A stretch of DNA of 64,000 nt, from contig NZ_CP110806.1 in assembly GCF_026184235.1 (NCBI RefSeq), forward strand, positions 3,038,001-3,102,000. Reading direction: 5' to 3'. Numbering within the stretch: the stretch's first letter is position 1; each line of letters begins with the position of its first letter. Below the pieces are notes generated by a model. It was not told the origin of the DNA and searched no databases. It saw only the letters and a program-made list of their open reading frames with translations. This stretch comes from Cellulomonas sp. S1-8 (GTDB lineage Bacteria > Actinomycetota > Actinomycetes > Actinomycetales > Cellulomonadaceae). This document shows positions 40,460 through 55,195 of the stretch, piece by piece. The translations under genes were made by a program, and so were the position numbers.

Positions 40460-40990
40460 TCAGCCGTCGACGACGGCCAGGCTCTCCTCGATGCCCGCGA
40501 CGACGTCCGCCGGCAGGTCGCGCCCGGTGAGCTGCAGGCCCACGCTCGTCCCCGACGCGGGGTCGGCGGCGGCCCAGAACACACCCGTCACGTCGTCGTA
40601 GGCGAAGTCGTTGCGGCGGACCTCGAGGGTCTGCGTCTCGACCGGCGTCGACATCCCCGTCGAGCCGTACCCCCAGCCGCCGACCTGCGCGCCGGCGACG
40701 AACGCGTCGAGCGCGCGCTCGGCACCGTCCTCGCCCAGCTCCGGTGCCGCCACGAGGAGCACGGACGTCGCCCCCGGCTCGGCGTCGTCGGACCAGCCGA
40801 TGCTCCACGTCGCGTCGGGCTGCGGGACCTCGACCCAGTCGCCGGGCACGGCGAAGGACAGCGCGCCCTGCTCGACGCGCTGCCAGCCCGCAGGGGTCGC
40901 GGGTGCGGCGTCCTGGGGGCCGGAGCACCCGACGACGGCCGCCGCGAGGAGGCCACCGCCGATCACGGCCAGCAACGGACGACGGGACAC
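40460..40990 (-). CDS. Lipoprotein of giant-prepilin unit 1
   Basis: 176 residues from GTG 40990. A signal peptide ends in a lipobox AAVVGCS, so Cys22 is lipid-modified and the protein sits on the outer face of the membrane. The mature part (GWQRVEQGALSFAVPGDWVEV, later LLVAAPELG) has the look of small beta-alpha domains of the PsbP/Mog1 type, and resembles the lipoproteins at 43612 and 48193 in the same neighbourhood (W...L.F.VP.DW.EV). It lies one base behind the membrane protein gene and in line with giant prepilin 1. Function unknown. Confidence 0.82.
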   Translation of the reverse strand: MSRRPLLAVIGGGLLAAAVVGCSGPQDAAPATPAGWQRVEQGALSFAVPGDWVEVPQPDATWSIGWSDDAEPGATSVLLVAAPELGEDGAERALDAFVAGAQVGGWGYGSTGMSTPVETQTLEVRRNDFAYDDVTGVFWAAADPASGTSVGLQLTGRDLPADVVAGIEESLAVVDG

Positions 40991-40991
40991 G

Positions 40992-41420
40992 TCACACCAC
41001 CTCGACGTAGGACGAGCGGATCGGCGGCGACCAGCGTACGTGGGCGAGGACCCCCCCGAGGGCCCCCGTCGCGAGGAGCAGCAGCACCGGCAGCGCGACG
41101 TCGGACACCTGCACCGACACCGGGACGTCGGCGCGCGACGCGGCCTCGGCCGCCGCCGCCAGCGACGACCCGAGCGCCGCGACCGCCGGGACGGACACGG
41201 CCGCCAGCCCCCGCAGGCGGGACGGGCGCGCGGCCGTGCGTGCCACCGCGATCGGCACCGCCACGGACCCGGCCAGCAGGGCCGGCACGACCAGCAGCGG
41301 CCAGGCCGCGACCGGTCCGTCCGCGCGGGACGCGAGGACACCGACGAGCACGGCACCCCCCGTCAGCACCACCAGGTACGTCACCGTCCCCGCCACCCAC
41401 GCCCACACGAGCCGTCGCAT
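40992..41420 (-). CDS. Four-TM membrane protein of giant-prepilin unit 1
   Basis: 142 residues from ATG 41420, 32 bases after prepilin 1. Four hydrophobic segments with short loops: TYLVVLTGGAVLVGVLA, WPLLVVPALLAGSVAVPIAV, an alanine-rich third (VPAVAALGSSLAAAAEAA), and DVALPVLLLLATGALGGVL. It has the same size, topology and position as the proteins at 45647 and 46286, which also accompany giant prepilins, though sequence identity is low by eye. It could hold the prepilin in the membrane before assembly; that is inference. Confidence 0.8.
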   Translation of the reverse strand: MRRLVWAWVAGTVTYLVVLTGGAVLVGVLASRADGPVAAWPLLVVPALLAGSVAVPIAVARTAARPSRLRGLAAVSVPAVAALGSSLAAAAEAASRADVPVSVQVSDVALPVLLLLATGALGGVLAHVRWSPPIRSSYVEVV

Positions 41421-41452
41421 CGTCCCCACCTCACCCTTCGTTGTCCCGGCGC

Positions 41453-42919
41453 TCAGCTGCACAACGTGTCCTCGACGAGCTGCCGGCTGCCGTCCTGCGT
41501 CGGCGCACCGAGGAACGCCGCCTCGACCTTCGTGGCCGTCGCCTCCTCGGCCGTGACGTTGAACCCGAACTCCCAGCCCTTCTTGACGGCGGCGCCGAAC
41601 TCCCAGGAGTCCTTGACGTTGTGGTACTCCACCTGGCTGAGCTTGGCCTGCTCGTACATCAGCTGCATGAACGGGTCGTCCGACGGGTTCTCGGGGACCA
41701 TCGCGGCGAAGGGGAGCGTGAAGGTCGCACCCGTCGCGCTGTCGTCGATCCACTCCTGCACCATCGCCCGGTTCTCCGCGGTCACGTCGAGCTTGGTCGT
41801 GGTCACCACGGACCGCGTCTCACCCTCCTGGAGCTTGCCGCCGGCCGACTTGAACGTGCTGTTCCCCAGGGCCGCGCTGCCGCCGATCTCGTACTGCGAC
41901 TTGAACGCGATCTGGGAGAGGTTCCCGTCCTTGTCGTACGTCGTCGTGAACGCCCCGGTGACCGCACCCTCGCCCGTGGCGTGGCCGACGACCATGCTGC
42001 CGCCGAGCGTGGCCTTGCCCGTGAGCTCGTACGTGTAGCTCTTGGTGCCGGCCACGGCGTCGTTCATCACGATGACCGAACCGCCGGCCGTCAGTGAGCC
42101 GTTCACGCCCAGCTGGGGGTCGATGAGCTTGTCGTCGCCGTTCTCGTCCTTGCTGGTGCCCGGGATGCGCGTGCCCGCGGAGGCCTTCAGCGCGGCCTCG
42201 AGCGTGATCTTGCCGTAGGTGATGCGGGGGTCCTTCGGGGCCTCGACCCAGCCGTCGGTGAGCCACAGGTACAGGCTGACGCCCGCGGCGCCCTCGCCCG
42301 TGAGCTGCTGCTGCTGGACCAGGTAGTCGTCGAGCTGCCCGCGCATCGACTCCCACTGCTCCGCGGAGTCGAACTGCCAGGTCGAGCCGTACTCGAACTT
42401 CAGGCCGGCACCCAGGCTCACCTCGGCGCCCGCGTTGTCGCCGTCACCGAGCTTGCCGGCGTCGAACGTCTTGGACCCGAGGTTGCCGCTCGCGCCGATG
42501 CCCGCACCGTCCGTCAGCGTCGCGCGGACGGTGCCGTCGGAGAACTCCTGGACGATGAACCCGGAGCTGTCGCTGACCTTGAAGAACCAGATCTTGACCT
42601 CGGCCGAGTACTTCTCGCTCGTCTCGGCCAGCATGCAGACGCCCGGGTGGTAGTCGGCGTCGTCCGCCTGCGTGACCGGCGCCGGTGCGTCGCACCCGCC
42701 CGTCCCCGCACCCTCGAGGGCCGCCATCAGCCGGCACACCGCCGCCGCCGCGTGCGGCGTCACGGACGACGCACCGCCCACCGACGCGGTGATGAGGACC
42801 GCCGCGAGCACCAGGATCCCGATGTACTCGACCGTTCCCGTGCCGCGCTCGGTGTCGGCCCTGTCGCCGCTGTCGGCACGCAGCGCGCGCATCACCCAGG
42901 TCACGAGAGGAGCCCCCAT
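41453..42919 (-). CDS. Giant Flp-type prepilin 1 with large ectodomain
   Basis: 488 residues. Residues 1-26 are a leader ending in Gly26; TGTVEYIGILVLAAVLITAS follows, so the class III prepilin site G26/T27 with Glu31-Tyr32 at +5/+6 is perfect. After the single hydrophobic helix comes Cys62, then a GTGGCDAP segment with Cys75. A domain of about 400 residues rich in Thr, Gly, Ser and Ala follows (FIVQEFSDGTVRATL, DAGKLGDGDNAGAEV, GKATLGGSMVVGH), apparently beta-rich. Normal Flp pilins have 50-80 residues. No SD precedes ATG 42919; TAGGTT (42952-42947) gives a short leader. It could be a minor pilin or tip protein; function unknown. Confidence 0.85.
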   Translation of the reverse strand: MGAPLVTWVMRALRADSGDRADTERGTGTVEYIGILVLAAVLITASVGGASSVTPHAAAAVCRLMAALEGAGTGGCDAPAPVTQADDADYHPGVCMLAETSEKYSAEVKIWFFKVSDSSGFIVQEFSDGTVRATLTDGAGIGASGNLGSKTFDAGKLGDGDNAGAEVSLGAGLKFEYGSTWQFDSAEQWESMRGQLDDYLVQQQQLTGEGAAGVSLYLWLTDGWVEAPKDPRITYGKITLEAALKASAGTRIPGTSKDENGDDKLIDPQLGVNGSLTAGGSVIVMNDAVAGTKSYTYELTGKATLGGSMVVGHATGEGAVTGAFTTTYDKDGNLSQIAFKSQYEIGGSAALGNSTFKSAGGKLQEGETRSVVTTTKLDVTAENRAMVQEWIDDSATGATFTLPFAAMVPENPSDDPFMQLMYEQAKLSQVEYHNVKDSWEFGAAVKKGWEFGFNVTAEEATATKVEAAFLGAPTQDGSRQLVEDTLCS

Positions 42920-42946
42920 CGTCGTCGTCCGCCGTCCGGTGCGCCG

Positions 42947-43001
42947 AACCTAGCCAGCGCGCGGCGCCGTCCGACGGGCCCCCGGGCTCACCCGTGGGCC
43001 C
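42947..43001 (-). promoter_or_regulatory. Promoter of giant prepilin 1 with three GGGCCC-like boxes
   Basis: Minus strand: -10 TAGGTT (42952-42947). Boxes at 42976-42981 (GGGCCC), 42984-42989 (GAGCCC) and 42996-43001 (GGGCCC) have centres 29, 37 and 49 bases upstream of the -10 centre. The flp promoter has boxes at the same three distances. The flanking GGGCCCGTCGG is also identical to flp. Confidence 0.7.
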
Positions 43002-43054
43002 ATGGTCGGCGGGCCCCCGGCGTCAGGACGACCGGGGCGACGGGACGGGGACGG

Positions 43055-43609
43055 TCAGGACGACAGCGCGCGGCTACGACCCGCGCGGCGGGCCACCAGA
43101 CCCAGGACGAAGACGACGGGAGCCACCGCCACCAGGACCCAGCCGAACGACGGCGTGCCGGCACGCGACGGGTCGGTCGAGACCGCGACCTCCGTCAGCC
43201 CGCCGCCCGAGCACGTCACGGTCGCGGCCGCGCCCGTGCCCTCGGTCGTCGCGAGCCACGTCCATGACCCGGAGCCCCCGACGTCCTCGACCGTGCCGGG
43301 CCGGTCACCCGGCGCACCGACCACCAGGTCGGCCACGGGCGTACCGTCCGACCGGCTCGTCGCGCACGTCACTCCCGTCACGTCGCCCTCGGCGCGCCCC
43401 CACACGGCCGTGGTCCGACCCGAGGGCAGCAGCTCCACCGCGTCGCCGGCGGCCCCGGCGCCCCACATCTCGACGGGACGCTGCGCGCCCGGGCCCGTCC
43501 CCGAGACCAGCAGCAGGCCCATGACGAGGAAGAACGGGGCGCCGAGCAGCGCGACCCACGACCACAGCCGCGTCGTGCGGCCGATGTTGCGCCGCGTGAA
43601 GACCGCCAT
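43055..43609 (-). CDS. Two-TM protein with extracytoplasmic domain, giant-prepilin unit 2
   Basis: 184 residues from ATG 43609. A basic head (FTRRNIGRTTRLW) precedes TM1 (about 17-38); the central domain of about 100 residues has two cysteines (VTCATSRSDGTPV and ATVTCSGGGLTEV) spaced as a likely disulfide; TM2 lies at about 150-172 with a basic tail. The partner at 48864 in unit 3 has the same plan and the same C...CxGGGLTxV ending, so the two are homologues. It follows the lipoprotein after two bases and shares the transcript of prepilin 2. Confidence 0.82.
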   Translation of the reverse strand: MAVFTRRNIGRTTRLWSWVALLGAPFFLVMGLLLVSGTGPGAQRPVEMWGAGAAGDAVELLPSGRTTAVWGRAEGDVTGVTCATSRSDGTPVADLVVGAPGDRPGTVEDVGGSGSWTWLATTEGTGAAATVTCSGGGLTEVAVSTDPSRAGTPSFGWVLVAVAPVVFVLGLVARRAGRSRALSS

Positions 43610-43611
43610 GC

Positions 43612-44190
43612 TCAGGACACCGTGACGGACGCGAGCACGTCGTGCGCGCCGGAGGCGTCGAACGTCTCGACGGGTGCGATCACCGCGACGACCGCCTGCG
43701 CCTCGTCCGCGAGGTCGAGCACGAGGTACTCGTACCGCACGTCCAGGTCACCGTCGTCGGTCGGCAGGGTCGCGGTGTAGGAGAGGAACGCCGCATCCTC
43801 GGCGCCCGGCCAGGTCAGCAACTCCTCGCTCGGGTCCTGCGCGCCGAGCGTCGCCTCCCCCACCGAGACCAGGTTCGCCACCGCGGCCGCCGCGTCGCGC
43901 GAGCGCAGCCGGGTCACCGACACGTGCACACCCGTGCCCGGACCCTCGGCGTCCTGCCGCAGCGCGTACGCCTCGTCCGCGCTCTCGCCGGCGGCCGTCT
44001 CGAACGGCGCCCAGTCCTGCGGCGCCGCGAGGGCGATCGGGCCCATCGTGTGCGACGTCCAGTCCGCCGGCGCCTCCTGCGGGTCGAGCACGGCTGAGCC
44101 GTCCTGGCCCGGGCTGCACGCGCCGAGGACCATCGTGGGCACCACCAGCAGGGCGGCGATCAGCGGGCGGGGCGAACGTCGTGCGGTCAC
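43612..44190 (-). CDS. Lipoprotein of giant-prepilin unit 2
   Basis: 192 residues from GTG 44190, with GGAG six bases upstream. The signal peptide ends LGACSPG, a lipobox with Cys25. Mature domain: DWTSHTMGPIALAAPQDWAPF and later LTWPGAEDAAFLSYTATLP, VAVIAPVETFDASGAHDVLASV. The corresponding pieces in the unit 3 lipoprotein (48193) are WSGLTLGPVTLDVPDGF, LTWPGADAAHHLTY and VGVLAPVDLFDELALHDVLA, so the two are clear homologues. It lies 44 bases after prepilin 2. It is probably an envelope partner of the prepilin. Confidence 0.85.
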   Translation of the reverse strand: MTARRSPRPLIAALLVVPTMVLGACSPGQDGSAVLDPQEAPADWTSHTMGPIALAAPQDWAPFETAAGESADEAYALRQDAEGPGTGVHVSVTRLRSRDAAAAVANLVSVGEATLGAQDPSEELLTWPGAEDAAFLSYTATLPTDDGDLDVRYEYLVLDLADEAQAVVAVIAPVETFDASGAHDVLASVTVS

Positions 44191-44234
44191 GGGCGTCTCC
44201 GGTCGGTGGGGGGTGGTCGAGACGTCACGGAGGA

Positions 44235-45650
44235 TCACACCACACACTCCGGGCGGTCGACGAAGCCGGTGCCGTCGTAGTACCGGTAGCCGGTCGTGGA
44301 GCGCGTGCTCTCGATCGACGCGACGTTCAGGCCCAGCTCGACACCCACCTTGCCCTGCGCGTTGACCGCGTCCTCGTTGGACGACGTCGTGTACGTCTGC
44401 TCGTAGATGAAGCCGCGGTTGGCGGCCACCCCGCCGAGCTCCTCGCCGAGCCCCGCGGGGTCCAGCTTGTCGAGGAGCGCCTGTGGGACGTCGACCGAGT
44501 CGGTGATCCCCGGGTAGTACGGGACCCCGGCGGCGTGCATGACGCGCGTCGCCAGCTCGCGGTCCGCGGCCGTCTCCAGCGGGATCTCCACCACGCGCTC
44601 GGTGTACGACGGGTCGCCGTCGATGCCGCCGGCACCCGAGTAGCTCTCGTCGCCGACCGGGTTCCAGGACGTCACGCTGCGGATGCGGAACGCGACGGGG
44701 TTCCCGTCCTCGTCCCGGTCGACCTCCATGACCGCGGCCGCCTCGCCGTCGAGCGTGAACTGCTTGTAGATGTCGTACCCGGAGGCGGTCACGGCGTGGC
44801 CCTCCAGGCCGCCGCTGATGCCCATCGACGCCCGCAGGTAGTCGGTCGACGTGCCGTCCTTGCGGCTCGTGCGGCCCAGGTAGGCCTCGAGGGTGGCCTC
44901 GGCGTCCGCCGTCGCGACGAGCGCCGTGGCCCCGGCGGACGCCTCGCCCTCGATGCCGGCCTCGAGGAACCACTCGTCCGGGTCGAGCTGCTCGTACTCG
45001 TTGCTGCCGCCGAGGTGCTCGTTGACCCAGTCGGCGCCGTCACGCAGCGGGTTGTCGTCGCCGAACCACAGGTCCTTGGTCTCGTCGTTGCGCTTGTGGT
45101 CGAGGATCCGCTGGGCCTCCTCCGGTGTCTTCGCGATGTACGACTCCCCGCCACCGACGACGATCGCAGCGCTCGCGTCCGCGGTCGCGCCCACGCCGTA
45201 CGTCTCGTTGTCGTTCGTCACGCTGACGTCGAAGCCGACGCCGACGCCGATGCCGATGCCGCCCTCACGGGCCCGCGTCAGGCGGTAGGTGCCGTCACCG
45301 AGCTGCTCGATGACCCACCGCTCCCCGCCCTCGACGGTCACGACGACCGTCACCGAGGAGCTGTCGTCCTGGCCGTTGGACGAGACCACGCACTCCTCCG
45401 GCGGGATGTAGTCCTCCGGGTCGCGGTTCTCGTCGGGGCCGGTGCCGCAGCCGCCGCCCTGCCCGAACGCCTCGGCGATGGCGCACGCCGCCGCCGCGAC
45501 GTGCTCGCGCGCCCGCAGCGACGTCACCGACAGCAGCAGCGCCGTGATGAGGACGGCCGCGAGCGTGATGATCCCGATGTACTCGAGGGTGCCGACGCCC
45601 GCGTCACCGCGCAGCGCGCCCCCACGTGCCCGGTTGAACCGTCGCATCAT
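44235..45650 (-). CDS. Giant Flp-type prepilin 2 with large ectodomain
   Basis: 471 residues from ATG 45650, overlapping the upstream stop by 4 bases. Leader RGDAG18 / VGTLEYIGIITLAAVLITAL gives a perfect G/X4-E-Y site with Glu23-Tyr24. Just after the helix are two cysteines (ACAIAEAF...GGGCGTG). The ectodomain has EDYIPPEECVV, GERWVIEQLGDGTYRLTR, GVGFDVSV, a DPDEWFLEAGIEG segment, VVEIPLETAADRELATRV, and a C-terminal TGYRYYDGTGF with a final Cys. Prepilin 3 shares these blocks in the same order. Role unknown; a minor pilin or adhesive tip is plausible. Confidence 0.87.
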   Translation of the reverse strand: MMRRFNRARGGALRGDAGVGTLEYIGIITLAAVLITALLLSVTSLRAREHVAAAACAIAEAFGQGGGCGTGPDENRDPEDYIPPEECVVSSNGQDDSSSVTVVVTVEGGERWVIEQLGDGTYRLTRAREGGIGIGVGVGFDVSVTNDNETYGVGATADASAAIVVGGGESYIAKTPEEAQRILDHKRNDETKDLWFGDDNPLRDGADWVNEHLGGSNEYEQLDPDEWFLEAGIEGEASAGATALVATADAEATLEAYLGRTSRKDGTSTDYLRASMGISGGLEGHAVTASGYDIYKQFTLDGEAAAVMEVDRDEDGNPVAFRIRSVTSWNPVGDESYSGAGGIDGDPSYTERVVEIPLETAADRELATRVMHAAGVPYYPGITDSVDVPQALLDKLDPAGLGEELGGVAANRGFIYEQTYTTSSNEDAVNAQGKVGVELGLNVASIESTRSTTGYRYYDGTGFVDRPECVV

Positions 45651-46051
45651 GCGTATGCCACCTCTCGGCCGTGCTGCCGGCGCGAGCGCGCCAAGGTTGC
45701 GGTGCCCACCACGACGAGGAGCCAGACGACGAGGTCCAGGGCGAGCGCCACCGGCCCCGCCGGGACCACGAGCTGCCCCAGGAACGTCCGTGCGGCCCAC
45801 GTGAACGGGTCGGCGGCGAAGCCGACCGTCGCCGCGAGGGCGACGAGGACGACGTGGCGGGGGGCGTTGCCTTCGTCGCCCATCCCGCGCCAGGTCACCA
45901 CCACGAGCACGAGCGCGACCAGGAGCGCCTTGAGCACCAGGGCCGCGACGAGCGGCAGCCCGGCGACCGCCATCATCCCCGCAGCCCAGGCCGCGAGGCA
46001 CGCCCCGAAGGCGTACATCACCGCCATGACCGCCAGCCGCACGAACGACAC
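45647..46051 (-). CDS. Four-TM membrane protein of giant-prepilin unit 2
   Basis: 134 residues from GTG 46051, with AGGAGG six bases upstream. Four hydrophobic segments: VRLAVMAVMYAFGACLAAWA, LPLVAALVLKALLVALVLVVV, HVVLVALAATVGFAADPFTW and GPVALALDLVVWLLVVVGTATLA. The third loop ADPFTWAARTFLGQLVVPAG matches SPTSWNGRTYAAQLVLEPG of the unit 3 protein at 46286, so they are homologues. It is first in its unit, and its stop overlaps the prepilin 2 start, so both are translated together. Possibly a prepilin-specific membrane chaperone; inference. Confidence 0.83.
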   Translation of the reverse strand: MSFVRLAVMAVMYAFGACLAAWAAGMMAVAGLPLVAALVLKALLVALVLVVVTWRGMGDEGNAPRHVVLVALAATVGFAADPFTWAARTFLGQLVVPAGPVALALDLVVWLLVVVGTATLARSRRQHGREVAYA

Positions 46052-46102
46052 GTGTTTCCTCCTCGTCCTGTCCGGCTGACGTCGCGCCCGCCGGGCACCG
46101 CC

Positions 46103-46145
46103 AGTCTGCGTGCGAGCAGGCGCTCCGCGATGGGCCGAGGGGTCC
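46103..46145 (-). promoter_or_regulatory. Candidate promoter of unit 2 with two GGGCCC-like boxes
   Basis: Minus strand: CAGACT (46108-46103) as a weak -10. CGGCCC (46137-46132) and GGACCC (46145-46140) have centres 29 and 37 bases upstream, the spacing seen at flp and the other two prepilin units, and the first box is followed by ATCG as at unit 3. No third box is visible. Confidence 0.45.
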
Positions 46146-46163
46146 GGACACCCGTTCAGCGGT

Positions 46164-46217
46164 AGGCCCGGCCTGGGCTCCCGGGCCCATCGGCGACGCC
46201 TGCGGACGACCTAGCCT
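46164..46217 (+). promoter_or_regulatory. Promoter of unit 3 with three GGGCCC-like boxes
   Basis: Plus strand: -10 TAGCCT (46212-46217). Boxes AGGCCC (46164-46169), GGGCTC (46175-46180) and GGGCCC (46183-46188) have centres 48, 37 and 29 bases upstream of the -10 centre. The last is followed by ATCGG, close to GTCGG at flp and prepilin 1. Confidence 0.65.
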
Positions 46218-46285
46218 CCACAGGATCCGTGGGGCGCGGTCCTTCGCGCCTCCCTGTGATCCCGACCCGCGAAGGACTCCGCTCC

Positions 46286-46705
46286 ATGCGACCTGCACTC
46301 ATCGCCCAGGTGGCGCTCACCACGGCGCTCGCCGCCCTGCTCAGCTCCTTCGCGGCGCTGTACGTGGCGCAGCAGGCGAACGACATCCAGGCGGGCCTCG
46401 TCCTGCGCGCGCTCCTGGTCACGGTCGCGCTGCTCGTCGCGTCGTGGGTCGCCGTGCGGCCCCGGCTCCTGAAGGCGACCCGGGCGCAGCTGCGCGCGGG
46501 CGCGCTCCTCGGGCTCGCGCTCGGCTACGCCGTCAGCCCGACGTCGTGGAACGGGCGCACCTACGCCGCCCAGCTCGTCCTGGAGCCCGGGGTCGCCACC
46601 ATGGTCGTCGACCTCGTGCTGTGGCTGCTGGTGGGCGGCGCCGCCGTCCTCGTCGCGAGCGCCCCGGCCAGCGCCCACGAACGGGCGACCTACGCGGCGC
46701 GGTGA
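46286..46705 (+). CDS. Four-TM membrane protein of giant-prepilin unit 3
   Basis: 139 residues from ATG 46286 with GAAGGA about nine bases upstream. Four hydrophobic segments; the loop and helix SPTSWNGRTYAAQLVLEPG then VVDLVLWLLVGGAAVLVAS match the unit 2 protein at 45647. It starts the plus-strand unit in the divergent pair and ends 40 bases before prepilin 3, which has its own leaderless promoter. The role is unknown; it probably accompanies the prepilin in the membrane. Confidence 0.83.
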   Translation: MRPALIAQVALTTALAALLSSFAALYVAQQANDIQAGLVLRALLVTVALLVASWVAVRPRLLKATRAQLRAGALLGLALGYAVSPTSWNGRTYAAQLVLEPGVATMVVDLVLWLLVGGAAVLVASAPASAHERATYAAR

Positions 46706-46733
46706 ACGCCCCCGGAGGGCGCCGCGCGGCCTG

Positions 46734-46748
46734 TAGGTTCCCCCCGTG
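46734..46748 (+). promoter_or_regulatory. -10 and leaderless start of giant prepilin 3
   Basis: TAGGTT (46734-46739) followed by six C residues and GTG at 46746, with no Shine-Dalgarno sequence. It gives prepilin 3 a second promoter inside its unit. Confidence 0.5.
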
Positions 46749-48140
46749 ACACGACCGCCCGTCCGCGACACCCTGCAGCGCGACGAGGGCGCCGGGACGG
46801 TCGAGTACATCGGCATCCTGACGATCGGCGCGCTGCTGGTCACGGCGGTGCTCGTCGCCCTCCCGGCCCTGGACCCCGCGGCTCGCGCGCGCACGCTCGC
46901 GTGCCAGATCGCCGACGCGTTCTCGGGCGGCGACGGCGGCGGGTGCGCGAGCTCGGGGGAACGCGGCCCTGAGGACTTCATCCCTCCGGAGCAGTGCGTG
47001 TACATCGCCGACGGCGCCGGCTGGCAGGGGTCGATCGCCGTCGGGGTCCAGGTCGACGGGGGCGGCACCTGGCTCATCGAGGAGCTGGGCGACGAGACGT
47101 TCCGGCTGACCCGTGGCTCGGAGGCGGGCGTCGGCGCCGAGGTGGGTGTCGGGTTCGACGTCTCCTGGCAGGACGGTGAGCGTCAGTACGGCCTCGGGGC
47201 GTCCGCGGGCGCGGCCGGCACGCTCGTCGGCTCCGACGCCGAGGTGTTCCTGGCCCAGGACCGCGACGAGGTCGATCGCATCCTCGCGGCCCAGAGCACC
47301 GACGACGTCAAGTCCGGTCTGCTCGGTGACGACTCCATCGCACGGAACCTGTGGGACGACCTGTTCGGCAGCGCACCCGAGGAGCACCTGGAGCCCGTCG
47401 AGACGATCCACGCCGCCGGGCTCGAGGTGAACGCCTCGGCCGGAGCGCTGCTGGGGGTCGCCCCCGCCGAGGCCGAGGTCACGGGCGGCATCTACGTCGG
47501 GTGGGTCGAGCGCGCCGACGGCACCCGGACGGACTCCTGGAGCGCGGCGTCGGACGGCACGGCCATGGCCGCCTTCCCGACCGGGACCGACCGCTACGAC
47601 CCGGCGTCGATGGACGACTACCAGGTCGCGACGGCGTCGTACGCGGGCAGCGCGTCCTTCGAGGTGGACCGGGACGCCGACGGGAACCCCGTCGCGATCC
47701 GCACGGTCACCGTCGGCATGGGGCACGCCGACACCGCGGAGATCTCGGGCGACGACCTCACGCTGCCGACGTACACCGAGACGCGCGTGCAGATGCCGCT
47801 GGAGACCGCAGCCGACCGCGAGCTCGCGGCGCGGATCGCGGACGGGCTCGGCATCCACGTCGCCGGGATCAACGACGACACCCTGGGCTTCGGCTCGCCC
47901 GACACCCTGTTCGGCCTCGGCGACAGCTTCGCCTCCATGGCCGAGGAGGCGAAGCAGCGCGGCCACTACTGGGTGCAGGAGTACACGCAGGAGACCACCG
48001 TCGACCGCGGCGGCAACGTCGACGCCAAGTGGGTCCTGGAGGCCGGGTTGTCGGGGTCGTACTACGAGACCGCCCGGGTCGGCACCGGCTACGAGTACTG
48101 GAACGGGCAGGATTTCGTCAGCCGGTCCGGCTGCCAGTAG
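46746..48140 (+). CDS. Giant Flp-type prepilin 3 with large ectodomain
   Basis: 464 residues from GTG 46746. The leader is RDEG15 / AGTVEYIGILTIGALLVTAV, a perfect G/X4-E-Y site (Glu20-Tyr21). Two cysteines follow the helix (ACQIADAF...GGGCASS). The ectodomain runs parallel to prepilin 2: EDFIPPEQCVYI, TWLIEELGDETFRLTR, GVGFDVSW, RVQMPLETAADRELAARI, and the C-terminal TGYEYWNGQDFVSRSGC. The Cys in IPPEQC and the last Cys match those of prepilin 2, so a conserved disulfide is likely. It lies between its membrane partner and a lipoprotein gene. Confidence 0.87.
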   Translation: MTRPPVRDTLQRDEGAGTVEYIGILTIGALLVTAVLVALPALDPAARARTLACQIADAFSGGDGGGCASSGERGPEDFIPPEQCVYIADGAGWQGSIAVGVQVDGGGTWLIEELGDETFRLTRGSEAGVGAEVGVGFDVSWQDGERQYGLGASAGAAGTLVGSDAEVFLAQDRDEVDRILAAQSTDDVKSGLLGDDSIARNLWDDLFGSAPEEHLEPVETIHAAGLEVNASAGALLGVAPAEAEVTGGIYVGWVERADGTRTDSWSAASDGTAMAAFPTGTDRYDPASMDDYQVATASYAGSASFEVDRDADGNPVAIRTVTVGMGHADTAEISGDDLTLPTYTETRVQMPLETAADRELAARIADGLGIHVAGINDDTLGFGSPDTLFGLGDSFASMAEEAKQRGHYWVQEYTQETTVDRGGNVDAKWVLEAGLSGSYYETARVGTGYEYWNGQDFVSRSGCQ

Positions 48141-48192
48141 CGTGCGCGTCGTCCCGCACCTGCACGACCGGCGACCACGAGGAGCCCTCCTG

Positions 48193-48867
48193 ATGAGGCA
48201 CGTCCATCCCGGCCTCGCGGTGCTGACGGTCGCGTGCTGCGCCGTCCTCGTCGCCTGCTCGCCGCCGGCCGAGCAGCCGGTCGACGGCGGGACGTCGGCG
48301 GTCCGGACCCCGCAGGCCGAGGCGACGGCGAGCGACGACGGCGACGGCGACGGCGACGATCCGGCCGGCGCGCAGGCGCTCGAACCGCTCACCGCACCGC
48401 CCGCCACCTGGTCCGGTCTCACGCTGGGACCCGTGACGCTCGACGTCCCCGACGGCTTCACCCAGGTCGACGAGCCGCAGGACACGACCGCCCGCCTGAC
48501 GACGTGGGTCGCACGGTACGGCGACCAGGACGGCGCGCGCGCCGCGATCTCGGTGGCGCGGGACCTCGACCCGCAACGCGACGCGTCCGGCACGGCGGAC
48601 GCCGCGCTCCAGGCGGAACGCGCGCAGCGCGGCGTCGACGACGACGCGTCGAGCGCGCTGACCTGGCCGGGCGCCGACGCCGCGCACCACCTCACCTACC
48701 TCCAGGACGTCGCCGTCGGCGGCACGCGCGTCTCGCACCGGGCCGAGTGGGTCTACGCCGACCTCCCGGACGGGACGCAGGTCGCCGTCGGGGTGCTCGC
48801 GCCGGTGGACCTGTTCGACGAGCTCGCGCTGCACGACGTGCTCGCGACGTGGCGGACCGGTCCGTGA
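48193..48867 (+). CDS. Lipoprotein of giant-prepilin unit 3
   Basis: 224 residues from ATG 48193; GAGGAG lies nine bases upstream. Signal peptide with lipobox VACSP (Cys21). An acidic low-complexity spacer (about 35-65, with GDGDGDD) precedes the domain WSGLTLGPVTLDVPDGFTQV, LTWPGADAAHHLTY and VAVGVLAPVDLFDELALHDVLA, shared with the unit 2 lipoprotein. The stop overlaps the next start (GTGA). It is presumably anchored outside the membrane near the assembled prepilin. Confidence 0.86.
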   Translation: MRHVHPGLAVLTVACCAVLVACSPPAEQPVDGGTSAVRTPQAEATASDDGDGDGDDPAGAQALEPLTAPPATWSGLTLGPVTLDVPDGFTQVDEPQDTTARLTTWVARYGDQDGARAAISVARDLDPQRDASGTADAALQAERAQRGVDDDASSALTWPGADAAHHLTYLQDVAVGGTRVSHRAEWVYADLPDGTQVAVGVLAPVDLFDELALHDVLATWRTGP

Positions 48868-49388
48868 GCACCGGCGGGAACCTGCGGCGCGCGGTCCGGA
48901 CGTCCGGGGTCGTCGCGTGCGGGGCCACCGTCCTGTTCCTCGTCGCCGGCACGTCGTACCTGATGCGCGTGGACACCCCGCCACAGATGTGGGAGCAGAC
49001 GTGGGCCGCGGGTGAGCCGATCACCCTGGACGACCGCCCCGAGGTGATCCTGTGGGCGCCGGACCTGGCCGGCTCCGCGCAGGACGTCACCTGCACCCTG
49101 AGCGACGCACGCTCGTACGACGGCGTCCTGCCCGCCGGGCCCGACGAGTCGCGAGCGGCGCTCGCGACGGTGACCGTGGACGGCGAGGACCTCACGTACC
49201 TGGCCCGGATCGACCACATCCGCTCCGGGACCATCGTGTGCGACGGCGGCGGGCTCACCCAGGTCCGCGTCTCGGACGACCTGCGCCCCGGGCTCGAGCG
49301 TGGCTCCGCGACCGCCTTCTTCATCGGCGCCGCTGTCGCCGCCCTGTGGGCGTTCGTCACGCTGCGCAGCACGCGTCCGCGGCGCTGA
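48864..49388 (+). CDS. Two-TM protein with extracytoplasmic domain, giant-prepilin unit 3
   Basis: 174 residues from GTG 48864, coupled to the lipoprotein by a 4-base overlap. Basic head (GGNLRRAVRTSG), TM1 about 15-35, a domain of about 95 residues with two cysteines (DVTCTLSDARSYDG and IVCDGGGLTQVRV), and TM2 about 142-162 with an Arg-rich tail. The CxGGGLTxV ending and the plan match the protein at 43055. It completes the mirror image of unit 2. Confidence 0.83.
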   Translation: MSTGGNLRRAVRTSGVVACGATVLFLVAGTSYLMRVDTPPQMWEQTWAAGEPITLDDRPEVILWAPDLAGSAQDVTCTLSDARSYDGVLPAGPDESRAALATVTVDGEDLTYLARIDHIRSGTIVCDGGGLTQVRVSDDLRPGLERGSATAFFIGAAVAALWAFVTLRSTRPRR

Positions 49389-49428: not shown

Positions 49429-50019
49429 TCACCGCCACGTCACCGGGACGTCGGTCACGGGGTCGAGGCCCGGGAGCTCGACCGTGACGGTCTGCGTGCC
49501 CGCGGTCAGCGGGGGAAGCAGCGCGTGGACGTCGGCCCCTCCGCCCGAGAGGCGGCTCGGGAAGGGTGCGCAGGCGCACCCCAGGTCCTGCAGGCCGTCC
49601 GAGTCCTGGATCGTGTAGGGCCGCAGCCGCCAGCCCGAGCCCTCGTCGACGACGGACACGCCACGCAGGTCGTTGTGCACGCCGCGGCTGTCCGACCAGC
49701 CGGAGAACGACCCGCGGTGCTCGCCGTCGAGCCGCAGCACCAGGTCGGTCCCCGCAGGGTCCGCGACGACCGCCAGGACCTGCACGTCGATCGGCGTGTC
49801 CTCGACCGTCCCGGAGGTCTCGCCCAGCACGTCGGCGTCCGGCAGGTCGTCACCGGCCAGCACGGCGGCCGCGTACTCCTCGACCGTGAGCTGCGCCTCG
49901 TCCTCGGCCGTCGCCTCGCTCGTCCCGGTCGGCGTGGGTCCCGGCGCCTCGTCCGAGGTGCACCCCACCAGCAGGACCGTCAGCAGGCACGCCGCCGCAG
50001 CGCTCCCGACCCGCCTCAT
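49429..50019 (-). CDS. Secreted lipoprotein after the OmpA-family gene
   Basis: 196 residues from ATG 50019, overlapping the OmpA-family stop by 4 bases. Signal peptide with lipobox LLVGCTS (Cys20), then a Thr/Pro/Glu-rich spacer. The mature domain holds VDVQVLAVVADPAGTDLVLR and a paired-cysteine loop LGCACAPFPS, ending in a beta-rich stretch TVTVELPGLDPVTDVPVTW. The partner gene upstream has a similar ectodomain, so both may act together on the cell surface near the pilus. Family not recognised. Confidence 0.84.
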   Translation of the reverse strand: MRRVGSAAAACLLTVLLVGCTSDEAPGPTPTGTSEATAEDEAQLTVEEYAAAVLAGDDLPDADVLGETSGTVEDTPIDVQVLAVVADPAGTDLVLRLDGEHRGSFSGWSDSRGVHNDLRGVSVVDEGSGWRLRPYTIQDSDGLQDLGCACAPFPSRLSGGGADVHALLPPLTAGTQTVTVELPGLDPVTDVPVTWR

Positions 50020-51116
50020 CGCGCACCCCCCTGCACCTGGTAGGTCACCGTCACGCGCCGGTTCGCCTGCATGTTCTCCGGTGAGTCGTTGGGTGCCACC
50101 GGCTCGTCCTCGCCGCGCCCCTCGGCGACGAACGTCACGGCCGCACCGGAGCCCGGCTGCAACGCCGCGACCACCGCCGCGGCACGCTGCTCGGACAGCA
50201 CCGTGTTGGACTCGTCCGAGCCGTCGGAGTCCGTGTGCCCGACGACCACGACCTCGCCCGTGCCGCGCGCGGCGATGTCGGCCGCCAGGGCGTCGAGGGA
50301 CTGCTGCGCGGCCGGCGTCAGCGACGCCGACGACTTGTCGAAGAGCACGTTCGCGTCGAGCGTCGCGGCGACCTGCTCGACGGTCTCGTCGAGCGTCGTC
50401 ACCTCGTCGACCGACTCCCGGTGCGCCACGAGCGGGCGCACGGAGTACGCGGGTTCGGCGGCCGCCAGGTCGTCGCCCTGCAGCACTGCCGGCCATCCCT
50501 CACCGACCAGGGGCGCAGCGTCGTCCACGACGGGCTCGAGCGCACCCTCCCCGACGGGCACGTGCGCGGCCAGGGCGTTCGTCGAGCCGATCTGCACGTC
50601 CACGTGCTCGACCCCGGCGGGGAGCTCGGGGAACACGACCCACACGACGGCGAGCTCACCGGGCTCGATCGACACGTCGCGCTTGTCGGTCGAGTACGTC
50701 ACCTCACCACCGAGCAGGGGCTCGTACGCGGTCATGCCTGCCCGGTCGACGAGGGCCACCTCCGCCACCGCGCGGGTCTCGTACGCCTGACGGATGCCGA
50801 ACACCCCGGAGCCGGGGACGCCCCTGCTCTCGGAGTCGGACAGGCCGAGCGAGAAGTAGAGCACCGTGCCGCCCTCGACCCGCTGGACGCCGTGCACCGC
50901 CCCACGGACGGTCGGGTCGGAGTCGTCACCGCCCGGCCGGAACGAGAACGTCGCGTGGGTCGCGACGTCCGTCCCCGCGACGTCCACCACCCCGGACAGC
51001 TCATCGGGCGTCGTCGAGGCCACGGACGCGGACGGCGCGGCCACCAGGCCCGCGACGAGCAGGCCGACCAGGACGGCGCGGGTGCGTCGGCCGTGTCGCG
51101 GCAGCTCCGGCGTCAC
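50016..51116 (-). CDS. OmpA-family (peptidoglycan-binding) secreted protein
   Basis: 366 residues from GTG 51116, chosen because AGGAG ends five bases before it. Signal peptide (RRTRAVLVGLLVAGLVAAPSASVAS). An N-terminal beta-rich domain of about 200 residues follows, and the C-terminal OmpA domain (about 255-360) has VLFDKSSASLTPAAQQSLD, VVVGHTDSDGSDESN, VLSEQRAAAVVAAL and ENMQANRRVTVTY, with the Asp and Arg that bind the peptidoglycan peptide. In a monoderm it would tie surface structures to the wall. Close to the tad genes, it may anchor the pilus; that is inference. Confidence 0.92.
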   Translation of the reverse strand: MTPELPRHGRRTRAVLVGLLVAGLVAAPSASVASTTPDELSGVVDVAGTDVATHATFSFRPGGDDSDPTVRGAVHGVQRVEGGTVLYFSLGLSDSESRGVPGSGVFGIRQAYETRAVAEVALVDRAGMTAYEPLLGGEVTYSTDKRDVSIEPGELAVVWVVFPELPAGVEHVDVQIGSTNALAAHVPVGEGALEPVVDDAAPLVGEGWPAVLQGDDLAAAEPAYSVRPLVAHRESVDEVTTLDETVEQVAATLDANVLFDKSSASLTPAAQQSLDALAADIAARGTGEVVVVGHTDSDGSDESNTVLSEQRAAAVVAALQPGSGAAVTFVAEGRGEDEPVAPNDSPENMQANRRVTVTYQVQGGAR

Positions 51117-51157
51117 GTGCACTCCTCGGCTCAGGGGGACAGATCGGGCGGCGGTCA

Positions 51158-51886
51158 TCATCGCACAAGCCGCACATCGAGCCGGGAGGTCACCCAGCCG
51201 CGGCCGGCGTCCACGGCGTCGTCCAGGACGCGGGTCCACGGGGACCGCAGGTCCGCGCCGTCGACGTCCGTGCAGACGAAGCGGTACTCGAACCCGTAGA
51301 TCGGGACCGGCGGGGGCGGCGGGGTCGGGCTGGGCGTCGGTGTCGGGGTCTCACCGGGCGACGGCGTGGGGGTCGGTGTCGGGGACGGGGTCGGAACCGG
51401 TTCGTAGCCGACGATCACGCGCCGGTCCTCGATCCCGCAGCTGCCGAGCACGACACCCACCTCGGCAGCCGACGCCCGCTCCGTCCGCCGGCCGTCGCGC
51501 TCGTTGCGGCGCGCGACCTGGACGTCGACGCGTCCCGCGTACCGGTCGAGCGAGTAGGCGGAGCCGACGAGGTCGGCGCCGTTGCGGTTCGCGTACGCCG
51601 ACGCCTCGGAGATCCCCGCCGAGAGCGGGAGCAGGCCGTCCAGCGTGTCCCCGGGGCCGAGCGTCGGCAGGCCGTCACGCACGAGCTCGCGCACGCGGTC
51701 GGCGGCGGCGAGCGCCGCCGCGTCGGCTGCGCTCTCCGTGAGGTCGGAGTGCTGGGTGCGCCCGGCGATCGGCAGGACGGTGACGAACAGCAGCACGACC
51801 ACCGCGAAGCACACGACGATGACGACGCCCGTCACGGCCGCACCGCGCTCACGCATCGCGGGTCCGTCGATCGGTCCGATCCTCAT
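51158..51886 (-). CDS. TadG/TadE-like pilus assembly protein with proline-threonine tail
   Basis: 242 residues from ATG 51886: AGGAGG (51898-51893) lies six bases upstream, whereas it would touch the in-frame ATG at 51892. Short head RERGAA then one TM helix (VTGVVIVVCFAVVVLLFVTV), followed by the TadE/G-like helix RTQHSDLTESAADAAALAAADRV. The middle holds an Asn/Arg-rich domain, and from about 175 on comes a low-complexity PTPSPTPTPT linker before a small C-terminal domain with a Cys. Glu at +5 of a prepilin site is absent, so it is probably not processed. Confidence 0.82.
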   Translation of the reverse strand: MRIGPIDGPAMRERGAAVTGVVIVVCFAVVVLLFVTVLPIAGRTQHSDLTESAADAAALAAADRVRELVRDGLPTLGPGDTLDGLLPLSAGISEASAYANRNGADLVGSAYSLDRYAGRVDVQVARRNERDGRRTERASAAEVGVVLGSCGIEDRRVIVGYEPVPTPSPTPTPTPSPGETPTPTPSPTPPPPPVPIYGFEYRFVCTDVDGADLRSPWTRVLDDAVDAGRGWVTSRLDVRLVR

Positions 51887-51945
51887 CGCCATCCTCCTGT
51901 CGTCGGCAGCACGCGCAGCGGCTCGCACCGCTCTCCCCCACACGC

Positions 51946-51980
51946 CCACAGGACCCACGGCATCGCCGTGGGTCCTGTGG
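51946..51980 (-). terminator. Terminator downstream of flp
   Basis: Perfect 15-bp stem CCACAGGACCCACGG (51946-51960) with 51966-51980 and a 5-base loop, 32 bases after the flp stop. It separates flp, which must be highly expressed, from the tadG-like gene. Confidence 0.8.
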
Positions 51981-52011
51981 TGGTCGGACGGGTACGACCC
52001 GTCCGGGAGCA

Positions 52012-52239
52012 TCAGTCGCGTGCGTTCTGCAGCGCCTCGTCGATGTCACCGATCTGCGTGTCGGCGATCGCCTCGGGGTCGAAGACGTCGAACGCGGCGA
52101 GCACGGCGACGATCAGCAGCGCGGCGACCACGAGGATGCCGATGTACTCGAGCATGCCCTGGCCGGCCTCGCGGTCGCCGATGCGCGCCTCGATCGCCTT
52201 CTGCATGCGGACCTTCGTGTTGACGAACATGCGGGTCAT
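52012..52239 (-). CDS. flp: Flp-type major pilin prepilin
   Basis: 75 residues. Cytoplasmic leader of 26 residues ending GDREAG; then QGMLEYIGILVVAALLIVAVLAAF. The class III site is G26/Q27 with Glu31-Tyr32. Mature pilin would be 49 residues, one helix with a short acidic tail (IGDIDEALQNARD), normal for Flp. GGAGGAG lies about six bases before the ATG. It has its own promoter and terminator and sits just after the tad operon. A TadV peptidase needed to process it is not in the window. Confidence 0.96.
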   Translation of the reverse strand: MTRMFVNTKVRMQKAIEARIGDREAGQGMLEYIGILVVAALLIVAVLAAFDVFDPEAIADTQIGDIDEALQNARD

Positions 52240-53070: not shown

Positions 53071-54281
53071 CGCGCTCCTCCCAGGGCCCGCGCCCTGTCG
53101 CTCAGGCCGTCGGGGCGACGTCCGTCGCCCGCGTCCGGCGGCTCCCAGGCGAGCTCGACCGTCGTCCCGTCGCCGGGCGCGGACCGCACGCGCAGCCGCG
53201 CGTCGACCTCGGAGGCGCGTTCCCGCATGCCCGTGATCCCGAAGTGGCCGGGCGGGCTGGCGGCGTCGGTGCCGGCGTCGAAGCCGTTGCCGTCGTCCCG
53301 CACCCGGATGCGAACGGTGCCGTCGTCGTCGTGCGCCAGGCTGACCCGGACGCACGACGCGTCGGCGTGCCGGTGGACGTTCTCGAGCGCCTCGGTGACG
53401 ACCGCGAGCGCCTCGTACCGCACGTCGATGGGCAGGTCCACCGCGTCGTGCACGGTGAACTGGCACCGCACCCCGGTGCGCTCCTGCCAGGACGCGCAGA
53501 TGTCCCCGAGCACCTCGACCAGGGCGCGGTCCGGCTCGTCCTGCCGCAGCCGCACCAGCAGCTCGCGCGCCTCGCGAGCGGCCCGCTCCGCGCCCTCGGC
53601 CAGCGCGGTCGCGATGCGCCGCGCCGTCTCCGGGTCCCGGTCCACCCACGCCGCCAGGCCTTGCGCGCCCAGCGAGATGCCGTGCAGGGTCTTGCCGAGC
53701 GAGTCGTGCATCTCGCGCGCCAGCCGCGCCCGCTCGTCCGCCGCGGCCGTGAGCTGCTCGGCCCGCGACACGGCCCGCGCGGCGACGACCTGCTGCTCGT
53801 GCGCGGAGCGCACCGCCACGCCGATCGCCACGAGCGCCGCGTACAGGGCCGGGACGCCGACCTCGGTCATGAACCCGCGTGGGGCGGGTGCCGGCGGCAC
53901 CATCACGACCACGAGGTACCCGGCGCACAGCACCACCGCACCCGCGACGGCCACGGCGGGTCGTGTGAGCACGCCGACGACCAGCGCGACCGGGAACGTC
54001 GCGAGCACCAACGGGCTCTCGACACCGAGCACCCACACGACCGTCAGGCTCAGCAGGATGTCGGCGACCAGGGAGATCGGGTGCCGCGCGACGAAGTCGA
54101 GGATCTGGGCGTACATCAGCATCGCGAACGTCGCGGCGCTCAGCACCAGGATGCAGGCGAGCAACGGTCCGGTCATCGTCTGACCGACCAGCCCCACGAG
54201 CGCGATCATGATCGTCGCCAGGCGCACCACCAGCGCGACGCCGACCACACGTCCGGCGAAGTCCCTCGTCGGCAGCGTCAT
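53067..54281 (-). CDS. HisKA_3 sensor histidine kinase of the tad operon
   Basis: 404 residues from ATG 54281, overlapping tadC by 4 bases. Five to six N-terminal TM segments (about 10-165) with little outside the membrane, so it senses within or near the membrane. Dimerisation helix with His in [20 protein letters not shown]; ATPase with [24 protein letters not shown] and [15 protein letters not shown]. Being co-translated with the pilus motor and platform proteins, it may report on assembly or surface contact; inference. Partner regulator immediately downstream. Confidence 0.93.
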
Positions 54282-55195
54282 TTCTCGAGACTCCCCATCA
54301 GCTCGCCGAAGTCGATGTCGGCTCCCAGCACCAGGCCCGTGAGCATGAGGATCAACGCCCCCGGCACCAGGACGACCGTCGTGACGAGCGTGAGCTTCGG
54401 CGACGTCCGCGCCGCGCGCTGACGCTGGCGCTGCCCGCTGTCGCGGCGCATGTCGACGGCGATCTGCTTCAACGACTCGGCCAGGGGTGCGCCCAGCTCC
54501 TGCGACTGCAGCAACGCCGAGACGAACTGCGCCACGGGTTCGGACGCGGAGCGCTGGCGCAGGTCGACGAACCCCTGCCGCACCGAGGCGCCGTTGGCGA
54601 TCTGGTGCAGCGTGAGCTGCACCTCGTCGGCCAGCGGGCCGTTGAAGCGCTCGGACACCTGCCACAGCGCCTGGCGGAAGTTGACGCCCGCCATCACCGT
54701 GACCGCGAGCACGTCGAGGAAGTCCGGCAGGTCGCGGTCGATGCGGTCACGCCGCGTCCGCCCGGCGCGCGACAGGCGCCCCACGGGGATGACCACGGGG
54801 ACCACCAGCGCGAGGATCGCCATGACGGGCTGCCCCAGCAGCAGCAGGGCCGCGCTCGCGGGCAGCACGATGATGATCCACAGCGCGCAGCTCGTCAGGA
54901 ACCCGTCGACGGTGAGCCCGTCGGGCCGGCCCGCCTCGTCGATGCGGCGCTGCAGCGCGTGCAGCCGACGGATGCCCAGCCCGCGACGCATCGACGGGAC
55001 GAGCCGCGCCGCCAGCGACTGCAGCGGCGTCGACCCCTCGGCCGAGCGACGCTGCTGCCCCCGCAGCAGCTCGAGGTCCTCGATGGCCAGGCCGTCGAGC
55101 GCGTCGGTGCGCAGTGCGCGGTAGCCGACCAGCAGCAGCACCACGGCGACCGCGCCGGGCACCGCGATCAGCAGGGCCACCAGCTCCCCGCTCAT
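54278..55195 (-). CDS. tadC: Tad pilus inner-membrane platform protein TadC
   Basis: 305 residues from ATG 55195 (ATGA overlap with tadB). GspF-like fold: N-terminal TM, cytoplasmic helical domain with [20 protein letters not shown], two TMs, then the T2SSF domain (about 150-270: [53 protein letters not shown]) and a final TM. TadB and TadC form the platform on which the TadA motor acts. Standard length and order. Confidence 0.94.

Follow-up and report, generated by a model that had tools for sequence, protein, structure and literature searches.

Long prepilin genes beside a Tad locus

The window analyzed here, a 64,000-nucleotide stretch of the Cellulomonas sp. S1-8 genome, encodes three long class III prepilins (G1, G2 and G3) alongside genes that we take to specify the Tad machinery (Table 1). 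A lipoprotein gene lies downstream of each, and a cassette has been duplicated, as evident by the pairwise paralogy of the TM4, lipoprotein and TM2 genes accompanying G2 (A) and G3 (B). A single A24 prepilin peptidase was found in the genome.

Table 1. Features of the window (coordinates are window positions)
Feature	Position	Strand	Remarks
G1, long class III prepilin	41453..42919	-	488 aa; motif G26/E31/Y32; Cys 62/76/95/487
G2, long class III prepilin	44235..45650	-	471 aa; motif G18/E23/Y24; Cys 56/68/87/469
G3, long class III prepilin	46746..48140	+	464 aa; motif G15/E20/Y21; Cys 53/67/84/463
G1 anchor module	42692..42844	-	predicted cleavage after G26, hydrophobic helix, Cys62 and Cys76
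G2 anchor module	45447..45599	-	G18, helix, Cys56 and Cys68
G3 anchor module	46788..46946	+	G15, helix, Cys53 and Cys67
G1 ectodomain, Cys95-Cys487	41459..42637	-	predicted 12-stranded beta-barrel; the two Cys bracket strands 1 and 12
G2 ectodomain, Cys87-Cys469	44244..45392	-	homologous to the barrel modelled for G3
G3 ectodomain, Cys84-Cys463	46995..48134	+	predicted 12-stranded beta-barrel
Small membrane protein after G1	40992..41462	-	
lipoC, lipoprotein of G1 unit	40460..40990	-	homologue after G1-like gene in 17/19 loci
TM2_A, membrane protein	43055..43609	-	paralogue of TM2_B
lipoA, lipoprotein after G2	43612..44211	-	start uncertain (43612-44145 in gene call); paralogue of lipoB
TM4_A, small multi-TM protein	45647..46051	-	paralogue of TM4_B; 4-base overlap with the start of G2
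TM4_B, small multi-TM protein upstream of G3	46229..46705	+	
lipoB, lipoprotein after G3	48142..48867	+	48193-48867 in gene call
TM2_B, membrane protein after lipoB	48849..49388	+	
lipoD, Tad-locus lipoprotein	49429..50019	-	
OmpA-domain protein of Tad locus	50016..51239	-	PF00691, E 7e-17
TadG-like membrane protein	51158..52012	-	putative label
Flp major pilin	52012..52239	-	75 aa, without cysteine
TadC, TadB, TadA, TadF-like, TadZ	54278..59412	-	putative labels; order compared with relatives

The three proteins, whose coordinates and lengths had been given correctly in the first-pass annotation, begin with a short basic leader followed by G-x4-E and a hydrophobic helix, the features by which class III (Flp-type) prepilins are recognized. 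Prepilins of this class are described in passages of PMC4322843 as small (50-80 aa), a range that G1-G3 exceed at 464-488 aa. All three also carry the exact G-x4-E-Y motif ahead of a charge-free hydrophobic stretch, as does the Flp pilin of the window, and the motif arose in only 2 of 11,800 shuffled N-termini. The tyrosine is not conserved family-wide, however. The G1-family alignment has 39 rows, four of which lack the N-terminus; G-x4-E is kept in 34 of the other 35 (in P0041, A replaces E), and Y is present in only 12 of 34.

A profile of the motif region, composed of eight typed rows of which six come from this same genome and match by construction, recovered G1, G2, G3, the Flp pilin and two long prepilins outside the window (all E 3.1e-19 or better), with no further match better than E 0.04. 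The genome holds five giant prepilins, two of them beyond the window, rather than the three first recorded. Likewise, where two cysteines had been reported after the helix, each of G1-G3 has four.

The two added cysteines recur in 91 of the 95 long prepilins that we collected at loci of Actinomycetota, 69 of which belong to the barrel group described below, versus none of 34 short Flp-type prepilins, for which any cysteine after position +25 was counted. Among the exceptions, L057_14665, L058_14727 (multi-TM) and the TadG-like gene of the window look like false motif matches, and the Hint-domain prepilin L126_8202 looks like a real one. Other long prepilins carry calpain, DUF6782, M4 protease, GDSL lipase or NlpC/P60 domains; the calpain and metallopeptidase prepilins of the Cellulomonas genome are separated from its Tad locus by ~0.1 and 1.4 Mb. 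This remoteness speaks against reading G1-G3 as pilus subunits. Sister long prepilins bear toxin domains, either Hint with Colicin_D or Tox-REase-5 beside Imm52-like genes. Taken with the predicted barrels of G1-G3 and the protease and lipase prepilins of related bacteria, they suggest a use of Tad pili in actinobacteria for displaying or delivering functional domains. Matches to Imm52 occur in relatives only, not at G1-G3. Downstream of the Hint-Colicin_D prepilin, neither of two small genes matches Pfam at E<=0.1, which leaves an immunity role there conjectural.

A predicted 12-stranded barrel

G2 and G3 are homologous over their full length (40% identity); the shared blocks noted on first inspection are present, but form just part of this homology. 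The G1 ectodomain is homologous too (hhalign probability 95.9, E 5e-9, 349 columns). Structure models made separately for G1 and for G3 predict the barrel from shallow alignments (39 and 15 rows), with mean pLDDT over five models running from 77.0 down to 57.7 for G1 and from 78.5 down to 63.0 for G3. The anchor region is modelled with low confidence (10-residue block means of 37-70), and neither model places a globular pilin beta-sheet in the low-pLDDT region between helix and barrel. Shallow alignments and a low-confidence anchor count against assignment as pilus subunits, as may the lack of a pilin sheet in the models. The barrel strands are amphipathic, with a hydrophobic face of A/V/L/F/G and a polar face of G/T/S/K/E, a pattern that fits a membrane or a soluble barrel alike.

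Foldseek matches have low TM-scores. The predicted barrels resemble those of the type Va autotransporters BrkA, EspP and Hbp (autotransporter translocators), which are likewise 12-stranded, antiparallel and of similar size. Autotransporters are outer-membrane proteins, whereas G1-G3 have a prepilin anchor that directly precedes the barrel, without autotransporter signal peptide or passenger, and no sequence homology between the two was detected. The host lineage is presumably Gram-positive, judging by the named homologues. A role as a guide channel for the pilus was dropped because a 12-stranded barrel is far too narrow.

Pfam and NCBIfam gave no match above cut-off for G1-G3 or seven neighbors; DUF4244 was sub-threshold (E 0.0086 and 0.07; none for G1), Flp_Fap was likewise absent above cut-off in G1-G3, and the Flp pilin of the window also lacks a Pfam match at E<=0.1. 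PADLOC returned no match for G1-G3. A match of the ectodomain to a non-pilus family lacking the motif, a possibility raised in the first-pass annotation, was found for the predicted fold (outer-membrane barrels) and not for the sequence, as no PDB match was convincing (best E values 0.046, spanning 61 G2 residues, and 0.26). A PsbP/LpqN-type fold suspected for the cassette lipoprotein was not confirmed by a profile search of the PDB, in which the best match (E 0.013) spans only profile positions 8-46, near the N-terminus.

Association with Tad genes

G1 orthologues of the Cellulomonadaceae-type loci L056-L066 lie between an OmpA gene (11/11) and guaA (10/11), and Tad synteny of G1 is seen in 15 of 19 related loci. 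The other four have no Tad machinery in the retrieved stretch, an observation that weighs against a pilus-subunit reading: L067 (Knoellia) and L074 (a Streptosporangiales MAG) over ~21 kb, and L056 and L072 on shorter contigs. Genes for OmpA and lipoD are present in L056 though Tad machinery is not in its contig.

A close TadA (E<=1e-150, a threshold set once the values proved to leave a gap from 6e-152 to 1e-121) occurs in 69 of 394 sampled genomes. It is present in 22/22 genomes with a near-full-profile long-prepilin match (starting at profile position 1 or 2 and reaching 44 or beyond, in a frame of at least 300 aa), a raw count uncorrected for relatedness between genomes, and none of the 325 genomes without a close TadA has such a match in a long frame. 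Counting five genomes left out for having a long frame with a partial profile match only (G350, G138, G249, G157 and G465), a close TadA is found in 25/27, three of the five having one at E<=1e-150 and two not. A shared need for one peptidase would also yield the 22/22 association. By hand count, a long prepilin lies within 16 kb of TadA in 13 of the 22.

By a crude lipobox regex, one of the two genes that follow encodes a lipoprotein for 27 of 45 barrel prepilins, versus 78 of 922 genes overall (p 4e-11); these 45 are the members of the 69 with neighbors in reach, and four more had no close gene. The regex overlooked the window's own G1 and G2, which makes 27/45 an undercount.

Candidate minor subunits of the Tad pilus

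We estimate a probability of about 0.5 that G1-G3 are minor subunits of the Tad (Flp, T4c) pilus, modular and headless, and probably located at its tip. The single A24 peptidase would cut each protein after the glycine, and the Flp-like helix would let it enter the Flp filament, cap it or prime it. The first cysteine pair would form a short disulfide loop leading into the barrel, with no globular pilin head, and the second pair would clasp the barrel ends. This arrangement would expose the barrel beyond the wall. There, probably present at the pilus tip as a single copy or a few, it may touch another cell or a surface. The membrane proteins and lipoprotein that were duplicated together would most likely serve the subunit's assembly or folding in the membrane, or self-protection. 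The four-cysteine layout, the predicted barrel, the conserved cleavage glycine and glutamate, and Tad synteny support the original proposal of a large folded domain attached to a prepilin. A pilus tip, a minor pilin and a surface enzyme, the roles then suggested, are all candidates.

The accompanying statement that no such family had been described needs narrowing. Large modular minor pilins are known, although no account of the barrel prepilin family, its barrel or its cysteine module was found in literature and family databases. A prepilin N-terminus with a large non-pilin module, as in PilB, KilN, TadG and CpaL, is present in G1-G3. S. sanguinis PilB is a modular type IV pilin in which a functional module is grafted to a class III signal, an arrangement that G1-G3 share, and a survey lists >1,200 such proteins in 264 architectures, predicted peptidases included (passages of PMC8179133). 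PilB, however, has a globular pilin module, the survey used motif IPR012902, and the main text of that source lacks the terms Tad, Flp and barrel. Myxococcus KilN/TadG are large Tad minor pilins at the tip (passages of PMC12075869); common to them and G1-G3 are this size, paralogous interchangeable gene sets, predicted disulfides and a variable outer domain. KilN differs by its pilin fold and its trimer with KilL and KilM, and the terms Actinobacteria, Actinomycetota and barrel are absent from the main text. Caulobacter CpaL, modelled at the pilus tip, likewise belongs to the Tad minor pilin-like proteins and has a large ectodomain, but it possesses a ~120-residue pilin-like module, a split vWA with two six-stranded beta-barrels inserted, and a G/A-x4-F/E site (passages of PMC12607857). 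In known Tad tips the helix is followed by a pilin beta-sheet, of which the G1 and G3 models show no sign in this low-confidence region.

Archaeal bindosome proteins offer an analogy for tethered class III proteins outside pili. G1-G3 may similarly be membrane-tethered surface proteins whose signal is merely an anchor cut by prepilin peptidase, a possible but rather doubtful alternative. The same kind of anchor bears enzymatic and other domains (calpain, DUF6782, M4, NlpC/P60, GDSL), the calpain and metallopeptidase prepilins are far from the Tad locus, and L067 and L074 have G1 and its lipoprotein with no Tad neighbors; the synteny at 15/19 loci and the co-occurrence with TadA (22/22, and none in the 325 genomes without it) argue against a mere tether. 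That shallow alignments gave rise to a spurious barrel, the ectodomain having another beta-rich fold, strikes us as quite unlikely; the few alignment rows, falling pLDDT values and low TM-scores given above favor it, and such an artefact would be compatible with the other readings.

We also regard as unlikely a contact-dependent weapon resembling Kil-type Tad killing, in which the barrels would be pore or translocator tips and the lipoprotein and membrane proteins immunity or release factors. The toxin-bearing sister prepilins, the likeness to autotransporter translocators, the joint duplication of cassette genes and the Kil precedent (passages of PMC12075869) favor this explanation. However, no recognized C-terminal toxin domain was found in G1-G3 by Pfam or NCBIfam, G1 seems to be stable among orthologues and not polymorphic, and the strand amphipathicity suits a soluble barrel equally. 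A classical polymorphic toxin was rejected because G2 and G3 are alike end to end, without a hypervariable C-terminus, and lack a toxin domain. Links between toxins and Flp cannot be called wholly unreported, since a 2025 paper mentions Flp pilins a single time, in a list of elements associated with ARC toxin domains; its relevant passages contain no cysteine-module, barrel or Tad analysis (PMC12605009).

In a broader proposal, improbable in our judgment, the Actinomycetota Tad pilus would serve both as a contact weapon and for display, by means of heads that can be exchanged. Their common socket would be the two-cysteine anchor, G1-G3 and other barrel prepilins translocator or pore heads, the nuclease, tRNase, lipase and protease prepilins warheads, and the lipoproteins and Imm genes self-protection.

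If G1-G3 are Tad subunits, they would link the Tad pili of Gram-positive bacteria to the display or delivery of functional heads, and place a predicted barrel of outer-membrane type where no outer membrane is expected. The cleavage glycine, the glutamate at +5 and the two cysteines define a recognizable class of prepilins in Actinomycetota, with cargo ranging from predicted beta-barrels to nucleases. The existence of interchangeable Tad tips beyond predatory myxobacteria is now testable, and such prepilins may offer certain toxins of actinobacteria a way out of the cell.

Giant prepilins beside the Tad locus

The prepilin motif, hydrophobic helix and lengths originally described for the giant class III prepilins G1, G2 and G3 were all recovered, and the motif arises by chance in 2 of 11,800 shuffled N-termini. 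The first-pass annotation noted two cysteines just after the helix in each protein; four are present in each, in the same layout in all three. A cassette that occurs in two divergent copies, headed by G2 and G3 respectively, has the gene order TM4 (a small multi-TM protein), prepilin, lipoprotein and TM2 (a second membrane protein). This cassette was probably duplicated as one unit, as suggested by the homology of the TM4 (E 0.001), lipoprotein (E 5e-17) and TM2 (E 5e-4) copies in blastp comparisons. The G1 unit carries its own small membrane protein and its own lipoprotein, the latter weakly like lipoA, the lipoprotein of the G2 unit (E 0.006).

These genes adjoin a minus-strand Tad/Flp locus that encodes TadZ, TadF-like, TadA, TadB, TadC, a histidine kinase, a response regulator, Flp, a TadG-like protein, an OmpA-domain protein and a lipoprotein. 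The Tad labels are those we take to apply, and gene order was compared with the loci of relatives. One A24 prepilin-peptidase match is present in the genome. The OmpA-domain protein has homologues in Tad loci of related Gram-positive bacteria. The TadZ ORF has a C-terminal TadE-like pseudopilin segment, with G-SASIE-F and a hydrophobic helix, and a similar C-terminal segment occurs in the TadZ ORFs of six of six relatives examined, an apparent TadZ-TadE fusion.

A profile of the anchor (predicted cleavage Gly and helix, followed in G1-G3 by two cysteines) matched six proteins of this genome: G1-G3, Flp and two further long prepilins. These match by construction, as six of the eight typed profile rows came from this genome; beyond them nothing scored better than E 0.04. 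A calpain-family domain (PF00648, E 6e-24) is found in the first of the two further prepilins; the second has a putative metallopeptidase domain (PF20573, E 2.4e-8, with an HExxH-like site). They lie about 0.1 and 1.4 Mb from the Tad locus, each followed by a predicted lipoprotein gene. The calpain prepilin has an rpoC-like gene on one side and an rpsL-like gene on the other, both in this genome and in the comparison locus L137.

Positions of prepilins and associated genes (the window is contig C1 3038001-3102000; L numbers are fetched loci, of which L004 and L005 belong to this same genome)
Feature	Position	Strand	Contig C1
G1	window 41453-42919	-	
G2	window 44235-45650	-	
G3	window 46746-48140	+	
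OmpA-domain protein	window 50016-51239	-	
TadZ ORF	window 57847-59412	-	
Calpain prepilin	L004:352-1797		near 3.191 Mb
Putative metallopeptidase prepilin	L005:691-1752		near 1.662 Mb
Pretoxin Hint prepilin	L126:8202-9872		

Distribution and association with Tad genes

Counting the window's own proteins, the G3 search returned 16 homologues and the G1 search 41, with Cellulomonas, Actinotalea, Xylanimonas and Pengzhenrongella among the named genera. Scanning genomes with the G1 alignment turned up 19 loci, of which 17 have a homologue of lipoC, the G1-unit lipoprotein (blastp E<=1e-3), after a G1-like gene. Tad machinery genes lie within the same stretch in 15, and are absent from the fetched stretches of L067 and L074, each about 21 kb long, and from those of L056 and L072, which are shorter. 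Among the 11 Cellulomonadaceae-type loci (L056-L066), an OmpA gene is upstream in all and guaA downstream in ten. Extra barrel cassettes are gained or lost from species to species. Within the family the anchor is patchily distributed: none of the nine other same-genus genomes listed has a match at E<=0.01, versus 20 other family genomes that do. In the G1 homologue P0041, Ala replaces Glu at +5, which would be expected to impair assembly.

Across the class, 48 of 394 genomes match the anchor profile at E<=1e-3. TadA (E<=1e-150) occurs in all 22 genomes whose match begins at profile position 1 or 2, reaches at least position 44 and lies in a frame of at least 300 aa, versus 69 of 394 overall (Fisher p 1e-18, uncorrected for relatedness), and in 25 of 27 when five partial-match genomes are added. 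By hand count, 13 of the 22 have a long prepilin no more than 16 kb from TadA.

Long prepilins, their domains and fused leaders

From the fetched loci we gathered 95 distinct long class III prepilins (199-815 residues from Gly). At least two cysteines at +33 to +61 are found in 91, a proportion that describes this gathered set only, because the gathering profiles were partly made from cysteine-bearing sequences; none of 34 distinct short prepilins has any cysteine after +25. With the anchor removed, single-linkage clustering (blastp E 1e-5, at least 80 aa) puts 69 of the 92 long prepilins that bear one or more such cysteines into a single cluster that includes G1-G3. Pfam recognised domains above cut-off in 18 of 66: Tox-REase-5 (5), GDSL lipase (4), NlpC/P60 (2), calpain (2), PT-HINT (2, one with Colicin_D), Abhydrolase_8, M4 and DUF6782 (1 each). 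The pretoxin Hint prepilin of L126 lacks the two anchor cysteines. Locus L106 holds four long prepilins and three Flp genes, the latter with identical N-terminal sequences, in one 9 kb array.

Tox-REase-5 lies near the C-terminus of its five prepilins, and in each case the next gene matches Imm52, once above cut-off (E 4.8e-8) and four times below it (E 3e-4 to 2e-3). Zhang et al. 2012 (PMC3482391) pair these two domains; the first 300,000 characters of that paper contain no word starting 'pilin' or 'pilus'. In the Tox-REase-5 group and in four barrel prepilins, the motif is preceded in frame by an extra 150-197 residues (326 in one) with one to five hydrophobic windows; the leader of these proteins is therefore not of the classical short kind. 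Loci with this fused region are L115, L117, L118, L120, L121, L124, L125, L061:12841, L064:7277 and L140, a list that includes none of the Hint-Colicin_D, NlpC/P60, GDSL or M4 members. In position and kind, the extension resembles TM4, which is a gene of its own upstream of G2 and of G3.

Possible roles: minor pilin, tether or weapon

Searches of open-licence PMC papers yielded no account of G1-G3 as a family, of their barrel or of their cysteine module. PMC12605009 names Flp pilins once, as one of the elements that accompany ARC toxin domains, and thus a toxin-Flp link as such is already known. The closest known systems are PilB-type modular pilins (PMC8179133), the Kil tips and TadG of Myxococcus (PMC12075869) and CpaL (PMC12607857). 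All share the modular idea with G1-G3 but include a globular pilin module, whereas the models of G1 and G3 show no more than a helix, a cysteine loop and a barrel; confidence is low in the anchor part, where such a module would lie.

The simplest reading, to which we give a probability of about 0.5, is that G1-G3 may be modular minor pilins of the Tad pilus, each with a predicted disulfide-clasped barrel as outer module. Its main competitor, which we consider rather unlikely, is that they serve as membrane tethers and never enter the pilus. A bolder reading, more doubtful still, sees here a contact weapon whose heads can be exchanged. It is worth testing because sister prepilins carry toxin domains and the Kil system (PMC12075869) sets a precedent in Myxococcus, but G1-G3 themselves give no sign of toxicity.
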